A DNA stretch of 32,881 bases from Gammaproteobacteria bacterium (GTDB lineage: Bacteria; Pseudomonadota; Gammaproteobacteria; Steroidobacterales; Steroidobacteraceae). A program made the translations under genes and the position numbers. The first letter of the stretch is position 1, and every line of letters begins with the position of its first letter. The stretch spans positions 7,030 to 39,910 of the forward strand of contig PLEC01000101.1 of assembly GCA_003136935.1 (NCBI GenBank). Reading direction: 5' to 3'. The notes under the pieces were generated by a model. That model ran no database searches. It was not told where the DNA came from and was given only the letters and a program-made list of their open reading frames with translations. Shown here piece by piece: positions 2,721-5,074 of the stretch.

Positions 2721-3395
2721 TCAAGGAGCGGGCGGCGGCAGCCGGCGGCAGGCTTCGACGAACTGCCGCCGCGGTGCGTCGGCGTCGATCTCGGCGGCCA
2801 GGCGCTGGATTAGCTGCTCCCAGCCCGAAGCGCTCTGTGCCGCGCGCCTCACCAGGTGCTGCGCGAGTGGACCGATGTGAGGCGCCAGCTGTTTTTCCAG
2901 GGACTGCAGCTGCGGTGCGCTGAAGGTCGCCGCGGCTACGCTCGTGGCTGCCACGGCGGCCTGGGTCACCAGTGCCGCGCCGCCGGCGGCGTTCAGCAGC
3001 ACCGTGACATGGGCGCACAGCCTGTCATAGTGCGGTTCGCGAGGCGCCGGGAAGCCATCGAGCCAGTGCTGGGAGCTCAGGAAATATTCCAGGCTCTTGG
3101 AAGGCACCAGGTCCTCGAGTCGAAACGGCAGCACCGGCACCTGCTTGTGCACGGCGCGCTCGACCTCCCGCCGCACCTGCGGTGAAAGGTTGCTGTGGCT
3201 GGAGAACACCAGCACCATGAGGCGCGCGGTGGCTATGGCATCGATGATCTCAGCCGCCCACTCGGCCGCCGGCGATATGTCCCGCGGTGCGATCCATACC
3301 GTAATCCCGCGTGCCTCCAGTCGCGCGGTCAGCTCGAACGCACACCCGCGATCCGGTACTGAATAACTGACAAATACGTCGCGCCCCACTCTCAA
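2721..3395 (-). CDS. TIR domain-containing protein with helical C-terminal extension
   Basis: RDVFVSYSVPDRGCAFELTARLEARGITVWIAPRDISPAAEWAAEIIDAIATARLMVLVFSSHSNLSPQVRREVERAVHKQVPVLPFRLEDL matches the bacterial TIR (TIR_2-like) pattern. C-terminal ~85 aa: LEKQLAPHIGPLAQHLVRRAAQSASGWEQLIQRLAAEI. TTG start at 3395 (alternative GTG at 3389). Confidence 0.85.
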   Translation of the reverse strand: MRVGRDVFVSYSVPDRGCAFELTARLEARGITVWIAPRDISPAAEWAAEIIDAIATARLMVLVFSSHSNLSPQVRREVERAVHKQVPVLPFRLEDLVPSKSLEYFLSSQHWLDGFPAPREPHYDRLCAHVTVLLNAAGGAALVTQAAVAATSVAAATFSAPQLQSLEKQLAPHIGPLAQHLVRRAAQSASGWEQLIQRLAAEIDADAPRRQFVEACRRLPPPAP

Positions 3396-4261
3396 GGCTC
3401 CAGGAGCTGCAGGGCCTTGGCGAGGCTGGTACGCATGCGGTTGAACGAGCGCGTCAGGTCCAGGAGTTCCGCGCTGCCGCGCGTCGGAAACTGCGCGGCG
3501 GCCGTGTTACCCAGACTGACCTCGTCGGCGATGGCGGCGATGTGCCGCACCGGGCGCACGATCAGGAGGTAGAGGATGACGTTGACGATCAGCAGCGCGG
3601 CGGCGAGGATCGCCGCCACCGCCGTCATGACACGGCGAAAGATCGCTTGCGCATTGGCGGTGGCGCTGGCGAGCGGCACGGACACGACCTGGGCGCCGAT
3701 GATCTCGTGTGGCTGCCAGCCGAAACCATTGTTGCTGCCATAACGCGCCAGCAAAGTCGCTGGCGCGCTCGCCGGCAGACTGTGACAGATGAGGCACTTT
3801 GGCTCGGCGTGGATCGGTCTCGCCAGGTACAAGGATCTTCCCGTCGGCGTGTCGCGCTCACCCACGATCTGTGTCGTCTGCGCATCATTTCTGAATTGCT
3901 GCACCAGGTCCGCCTCCCAGTCCGTCGCCCGGTCGCGCAGGTTGGTGGGGTTGAGGGTCGCTTCCCGGTACGCGTATTCGGGATGATGCTCGCGCAGCTT
4001 AAGGAAGTTCTGGGTGGCGGCATAGGAAGGCACGCTTTGCGGTAGGAACTCCTTGAACATCCCGGCGTTGAGGAGCGGGACGATCTCCTCGGATGTGTAG
4101 CCGCGCATGGAAAGCGCGCTGTCCATCATCAGCCCCGCTTCACGCAAGACCTCGCGCTGCGCGTTCGCCTGCAGCATGGACGAACAGGCCCAGCCAAGCG
4201 CCAGCGCGGCCAGGGTAAACGTCAGGACAAGAGCCAGATTTATGCGTACCAGGAGGTTCAT
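3392..4261 (-). CDS. Tll0287-like (DUF3365) domain protein with c-type heme motif, transmembrane segments and C-terminal HAMP domain
   Basis: N-terminal TM helix (NLALVLTFTLAALALGWACSSML); periplasmic domain with PIHAEPKCLICHSLPASAP (CxxCH); second TM (VMTAVAAILAAALLIVNVILYLLIVRPVRHIAAIADEVSLGN...) leading into HAMP (SAELLDLTRSFNRMRTSLAKAL). The protein ends directly after HAMP. Confidence 0.85.
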   Translation of the reverse strand: MNLLVRINLALVLTFTLAALALGWACSSMLQANAQREVLREAGLMMDSALSMRGYTSEEIVPLLNAGMFKEFLPQSVPSYAATQNFLKLREHHPEYAYREATLNPTNLRDRATDWEADLVQQFRNDAQTTQIVGERDTPTGRSLYLARPIHAEPKCLICHSLPASAPATLLARYGSNNGFGWQPHEIIGAQVVSVPLASATANAQAIFRRVMTAVAAILAAALLIVNVILYLLIVRPVRHIAAIADEVSLGNTAAAQFPTRGSAELLDLTRSFNRMRTSLAKALQLLEP

Positions 4262-4411: not shown

Positions 4412-5074
4412 ATGGGGCTGTTCCGCAATAAGTCGATTCTGCCTGAAAAGGATAAGGCGCTCCCGGGACGTGCCGCGCCGCTGAAGGTGCCGGAGACGCA
4501 TTTTGTGAACGGCCATCGCAGCGTGCCGCCGTTCCCTGCCGGGATGCGCGAGGCGGTGTTCGGGCTCGGCTGCTTCTGGGGCGCCGAGCAGTTGTTCTGG
4601 AAACTTCCCGGCGTGTATTCGACCGCGGTCGGCTACGCCGGCGGCTTCACGCCCAACCCGACGTACGAGGAGGTCTGCACCGGGCAGACCGGGCACACCG
4701 AGGTGGTGCGCGTGATCTACGACCCGCAGAAAGCCGACTACGAGGAACTGCTCAAGGAGTTCTGGGAATCCCATGATCCGACGCAGGGCATGCGGCAGGG
4801 CAACGATGTGGGGACGCAATACCGCTCGGCGATTTACGCGTCGGATGACGAACAGCGCGCCGCGGCGGAAGAATCGCGGCGCGTCTACCAGGCGCGCCTC
4901 AGCGCGGCGGGGAAGGGGACGATCACGACGGAGATCCGCGACGCGCCCGCCTTCTATTACGCCGAGGAGTATCACCAGCAGTACCTGGCGAAGAATCCGG
5001 ACGGCTACTGCGGGCTCGGGGGATGTGGGGTTTCCTACAAACCCGCGGAGCTGGCAGTGGGGGCGAAGGCGTAA
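4412..5074 (+). CDS. msrA: Peptide-methionine (S)-S-oxide reductase MsrA
   Basis: [60 protein letters not shown] with GCFWGAE active-site motif; GGAGG Shine-Dalgarno just upstream. Confidence 0.97.

Follow-up and report, generated by a model that had tools for sequence, protein, structure and literature searches.

A putative split receptor in Steroidobacteraceae: an outputless c-type heme Cache-HAMP sensor coupled to a TIR protein with a STAC-like adaptor domain

Gene content and organization of the sensor–TIR unit

We analysed a 32,881-nucleotide stretch of DNA (hereafter the window) from a Gammaproteobacteria bacterium of the family Steroidobacteraceae (GenBank assembly GCA_003136935.1, contig PLEC01000101.1, positions 7,030–39,910), with a focus on a two-gene unit that encodes a membrane sensor with a c-type heme attachment motif and a TIR-domain protein. 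Coordinates are positions in the window, and both genes lie on its minus strand. The sensor gene (3392..4261, 289 amino acids) encodes a transmembrane helix, an sCache_heme (Tll0287-like) domain, a second transmembrane helix and a HAMP domain, and then stops. The periplasmic domain (residues 31–196; 3674..4171) matches the full profile of Pfam PF11845 (E = 1.2e-35) and contains the CxxCH motif for c-type heme attachment in the form CLICH (residues 156–160; 3782..3796), whose C156, C159 and H160 are invariant in the alignment of all 16 sensor homologues. The ectodomain has no other cysteine. HAMP (residues 232–280; 3422..3568; PF00672, E = 5.8e-8) is followed by the stop codon six residues past the end of the match, and every row of the 16-row homologue alignment likewise ends just past HAMP. 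An earlier reading of this DNA from the sequence alone (hereafter the sequence-only reading) had described a Tll0287/DUF3365-like domain with CLICH, two transmembrane helices and a HAMP domain with no output domain behind it; Pfam and the sequence itself confirm both statements. The sensor is the sole Tll0287-like protein of its genome.

The two genes are translationally coupled: the TGA stop codon of the sensor gene and the TTG start codon of the TIR gene share bases in a TTGA (3392..3395; junction ...CTGGAGCCTTGAGAGTG...), as the sequence-only reading had reported, and relatives have similarly tight junctions. The TIR gene (2721..3395, 224 amino acids, 45–69% identity among relatives) encodes an N-terminal TIR domain (residues 7–125; 3021..3377; Pfam TIR_2 PF13676, E = 5.7e-21, 75.7 bits against a cut-off of 28) and a C-terminal domain with an IGPLA motif (residues 158–217; 2745..2924), hereafter the adaptor. 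Pfam and NCBIfam scans returned nothing meaningful for the adaptor, which has no Pfam family. The AlphaFold2 model of the TIR domain matches TIR folds including those of SARM1, RUN1 and SPARTA (Foldseek, E down to 1.5e-5), and a phmmer search of the PDB with the single TIR protein gave no matches. Glu77 (3165–3167) is invariant in the alignment of 10 out of 10 relatives and aligns with a glutamate of metazoan TIR-STING, at what we take to be the position of the catalytic glutamate of TIR NADases. The GC content at third codon positions (GC3) of both genes resembles that of the neighbouring genes, and scans for promoters and terminators were negative on the strand that encodes the pair.

Conservation of the pairing

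A scan of species genomes recovered 16 sensor relatives. The five closest (61–77% identity) have a TIR gene directly downstream, and the more distant ones, where the contig permits, have another gene family in the adjacent position. In 297 genomes of the window's order, all seven intact sensor orthologues adjoin a TIR-adaptor gene and, reciprocally, the seven full-length TIR homologues come from those same seven genomes, each with the sensor adjacent. Conservation outside this genome, on which the link proposed by the sequence-only reading depended, is thus found in both directions, and the pairing is seen in about ten species in all. The other TIR matches in these genomes lack the C-terminal domain and are mostly larger proteins that match the TIR part alone. 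For six window proteins that flank the pair, the fetched flanks of loci L007–L011 contain no homologue, so the sensor–TIR pair alone is the persisting syntenic unit. Chance is excluded because both reading frames and their coupling are conserved in other species. Genome G163, from the same family, contains a decayed copy of the sensor gene (L083:2910–3816, plus strand, same as L031), broken into two frames with a stop codon.

An adaptor domain shared by exchangeable effector heads

When the TIR protein was used as a phmmer query, it matched the neighbours of the distant sensors through residues ∼147–217 and not through TIR. These neighbours are serine/threonine kinases, kinase–cyclase fusions or cyclases, and accompany receptors of 46–50% identity in Betaproteobacteria and in metagenome-assembled genomes of Nitrospirae and Holophagales. 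Because the matches run through the C-terminal domain, different enzyme heads with one common adaptor stand beside the same outputless receptor. The adaptor is helical, ∼57–60 amino acids long, with the consensus LExxLAxxIGPxAxxLVRRAAxxxxxxxxLxxxLAxxI(x5)RxxF, in which L, G and P are invariant in 35 sequences; the kinase and cyclase partners have one or two copies, usually two, and the TIR proteins have one. The sequence-only reading had taken the TIR protein to be the missing output of the sensor. This is supported by the reciprocal pairing, with the qualification that TIR is one of several exchangeable heads; the link survives the genomic tests, but it sits in the adaptor, which that reading had overlooked.

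We surveyed the association from both sides. A profile of the adaptor alone matches five genomes in a 399-genome sample of the phylum, with the heme receptor adjacent in all five, and 42 of 276 genomes in two adaptor-rich orders. From these orders 47 further gene loci were fetched, two of which are cut by contig ends. Among the 45 testable loci, the heme receptor is adjacent in 33, another HAMP-ending receptor in five and neither in seven, i.e. a HAMP-ending receptor of either kind lies beside the adaptor gene in 38. The five non-heme receptors also stop within nine residues after HAMP: three have a dCache_1-HAMP architecture (L171, L174 and L191) and two a short ectodomain without Pfam match (L183 and L192). 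The partners of the former are small proteins with an N-terminal part followed by the adaptor, with a weak DUF4388 match in L171. In the reverse survey, a profile search of the phylum sample yielded 21 sensors, of which 15 have frames longer than 400 amino acids and six are outputless. Pfam scans of six of the long-frame sensors identified GGDEF, PAS, histidine kinase or HD outputs, and no adaptor gene lies beside any of the 15 within the fetched flank (∼1.5 kb); an adaptor-bearing enzyme is adjacent to five of the six outputless sensors.

A tree of 63 receptors places the ten that are associated with TIR on one side of a branch with a support of 94 in the Shimodaira–Hasegawa-like approximate likelihood ratio test (SH-aLRT), among kinase-associated receptors. 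One lineage has likely replaced its kinase head with a TIR head, a direction that we infer because the tree is unrooted and comes from a quick search.

Relation of the adaptor to STAC domains and the HAMP-end signature

The AlphaFold2 model of the adaptor is compact and helical (predicted local distance difference test score 94.9), with three helices, the first of which is kinked at GP. In a Foldseek search of the PDB (350,542 chains), ranks 1 and 2 are both chains of Af1502 (TM-score 0.5, 21% identity over 62 columns), the operon partner translationally coupled to the outputless receptor Af1503 of Archaeoglobus fulgidus (PMC4834066). The STAC family, which Af1502 defines, has an LGPx(x)A motif where helix 1 passes into helix 2; the adaptor carries [IV]GPxA, with invariant G and P, at what would be the corresponding position. 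We also built a STAC profile from 28 STACs of SLC5-STAC histidine kinases (CbrA type). Against these, the tandem adaptor profile scores 31.4 in hhalign (P = 4.8e-5 over 80 columns); the aligned region runs from the second half of the first copy through the linker into the first half of the second copy. In the controls, 200 column shuffles score at most 23.7 (0/200 reach 31.4), the reversed alignment scores 11 and five unrelated alignments score at most 16.7; the initial profile of only four STACs had given P = 0.003. A link to Af1502 by sequence alone was tried and rejected: the adaptor profile finds it in the PDB with a non-significant E of 0.2, beside segments of [NiFe] hydrogenase, and a shortened profile no longer finds it. 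Because these matches are not significant alone, the STAC assignment rests on the fold rank and the controlled hhalign comparison. On these grounds, the view that the adaptor is a divergent STAC-family domain, circularly permuted relative to that of CbrA, appears well supported but is not proven. Such a permutation with respect to the window adaptor is seemingly present in the STACs of SLC5 histidine kinases in loci L287–L290 and L291–L314.

The receptors have a common feature of their own. In the window sensor, HAMP ends in SLAKALQLL (residues 279–287; 3401..3427), a form of the pattern S[LIMVT]xx[AS][MLIF]xx[LIM] that ends HAMP in 63 of 63 adaptor-paired receptors, a count that stands for a few independent lineages because the paired heme receptors are kin. 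The same genomes and searches supplied 65 control HAMP domains, of which three match, only one of them in register. The HAMP end of Af1503, SLKVAMESL, fits the same signature. We regard it as a candidate docking site for the adaptor. The window's genome has a second HAMP frame that stops right after HAMP (L219, G000:C19:40272–40409) and lacks the signature; a relative in genome G112 (L243) reads on past HAMP, so truncation or a frameshift may explain L219.

Proposed mechanism and alternative explanations

We propose, with a probability of roughly 0.62, that the unit is a split transmembrane receptor, in which an outputless c-type heme Cache-HAMP protein has the TIR-STAC-like protein as its output in trans. 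This builds on the observed gene structure, domains, conserved pairing, common adaptor and common HAMP signature. As we infer the docking, ligand, direction of control and NAD+ chemistry, the dimeric periplasmic heme domain would bind a ligand, most likely nitric oxide (NO), or report the redox state; HAMP would then change conformation; the adaptor, docked at the C-terminal signature of HAMP, would relay this change to the TIR heads; and the heads would associate, so that NAD+ processing is switched on or off. Because the same adaptor brings kinases or cyclases to such receptors in many other bacteria, the effector is probably a separate, exchangeable protein under the control of the receptor. 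Those other heads act in signalling, so NAD+-derived signalling seems likelier than cell suicide, and the TIR domain probably serves for signalling more than as a suicide toxin.

Several points weigh against this reading. The conservation of Glu77 is only supportive of NADase activity. Seven adaptor genes (L188, L198, L177, L178, L180, L205 and L168) have no HAMP receptor nearby. The Foldseek E to Af1502 is weak (0.86), and the modelled adaptor has a long kinked first helix and not a clean four-helix hairpin pair. The adaptor-paired receptor sequences are related, and their counts are not independent.

Three alternative explanations were considered. First, the pair may be real while its heme domain senses a cue other than NO, e.g. 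the periplasmic redox state or another gas. We consider this rather unlikely. Stand-alone members of the sCache_heme family show redox-type behaviour (PMC12889525), and the divergent gene msrA (peptide methionine sulfoxide reductase; 4412–5074, plus strand) lies 150 bp from the sensor start, though it is not kept beside the pair in loci L007–L011. However, the HAMP-bearing member that has been studied, a closely similar P. azotoformans protein (WP_033902098) with two transmembrane helices, HAMP, a full length of 34.5 kDa and a dimeric state, has the properties of an NO sensor: it binds NO, releases it slowly (koff near 6e-4 per second) and forms no stable oxygen complex (PMC12889525). Moreover, the axial cysteine seen in the redox type is missing from the window sensor, whose ectodomain has no cysteine outside CLICH. 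NO thus appears the most likely ligand, unless the domain reports redox state.

Second, the C-terminal domain could be an oligomerisation module of the effector that makes no contact with the receptor, which would act on another partner. The copy numbers of the adaptor (usually two per kinase but one per TIR protein, TIR enzymes needing assembly) and the seven adaptor genes without a nearby receptor would fit such a role. Yet three types of head, and headless proteins of two copies, all keep the adaptor beside outputless HAMP receptors, and receptors with a built-in output lack it, which makes this explanation improbable.

Third, it is very improbable that the TIR protein is an anti-phage effector triggered by a phage component, with a sensor that is merely co-transcribed or monitors envelope damage. 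Defence is the role of the majority of bacterial TIR enzymes characterised so far, and the best PADLOC matches of the TIR domain are defence TIRs (SAVED-TIR, TIR-pAgo and ThsB), through the TIR part only. Against this, none of ten large window neighbours has a PADLOC match, so that the idea of a defence island is not supported; the window neighbours are transporters, peptidases and TonB receptors; the NCBIfam model for Thoeris (Thoeris III) scores 24 against a cut-off of 220; and in other bacteria this receptor is paired with kinases and cyclases.

Implications and comparison with known systems

The split receptor proposed for the window may be one case of a general bacterial mode, to which we give even odds: outputless Cache-HAMP receptors with varied ectodomains would drive exchangeable soluble effectors through a STAC-family adaptor that docks at the HAMP-end signature, and the window unit would be its NO- or redox-gated TIR version. 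The effector heads in this mode would be a serine/threonine kinase, a nucleotide cyclase, TIR, a DUF4388-like domain, or none, i.e. a bare adaptor. The role of STAC has been described as unclear (PMC13022988), and Af1503, a model HAMP receptor, is without a recognisable effector module (PMC4834066). If true, the modular mode would assign a role to STAC and account for the Af1503 family. Both questions become directly testable because the loci described here join outputless HAMP receptors to STAC-like domains that bear recognisable enzymes. Under the proposed control by a periplasmic heme receptor, TIR chemistry would act in the signalling of environmental cues (NO or redox) as well as in immunity. 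We found no paper linking TIR with DUF3365 in the literature collection searched, which is itself incomplete.

Compared with known systems, the unit combines familiar parts. With Thoeris ThsB, TIR-SAVED and SPARTA it shares the TIR fold and the conserved glutamate position, but it has neither their cognate partner genes nor a nucleic-acid or cyclic-nucleotide sensor domain, and is coupled to a periplasmic receptor instead. The P. azotoformans protein and the window sensor have in common the Pfam domain, CxxCH, two transmembrane helices, HAMP and the absence of an axial cysteine, whereas the study of the former describes no partner gene, adaptor or TIR (PMC12889525). The CbrA-type SLC5-STAC histidine kinases resemble the unit in profile similarity and in the location of STAC, with a membrane part on one side and an enzymatic output on the other (PMC13022988), but they are one polypeptide with a transporter input, and their helix pairs are in permuted order relative to the adaptor.

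The closest likeness is to Af1503/Af1502: in both, HAMP is the sole cytosolic part of the receptor, the genes are translationally coupled, the partner has a small helical domain with a GPxA motif, and HAMP ends in the same signature. Two loci contain what look like bacterial counterparts of this archaeal pair, with headless proteins of two adaptors beside a HAMP receptor that has a short non-heme ectodomain (L183:2480–3211 and 1633–2337, and L192:2080–2625 and 1329–2117, all on the minus strand). The window unit differs in that Af1502 is a bare STAC of 68 amino acids while the window adaptor is joined to a TIR enzyme, and its relatives elsewhere to a kinase or cyclase, and in that the receptor ectodomain is a predicted c-type heme binder. 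We thus regard the unit as the arrangement of an outputless HAMP receptor with a STAC domain, new in its heme sensor and its TIR effector.
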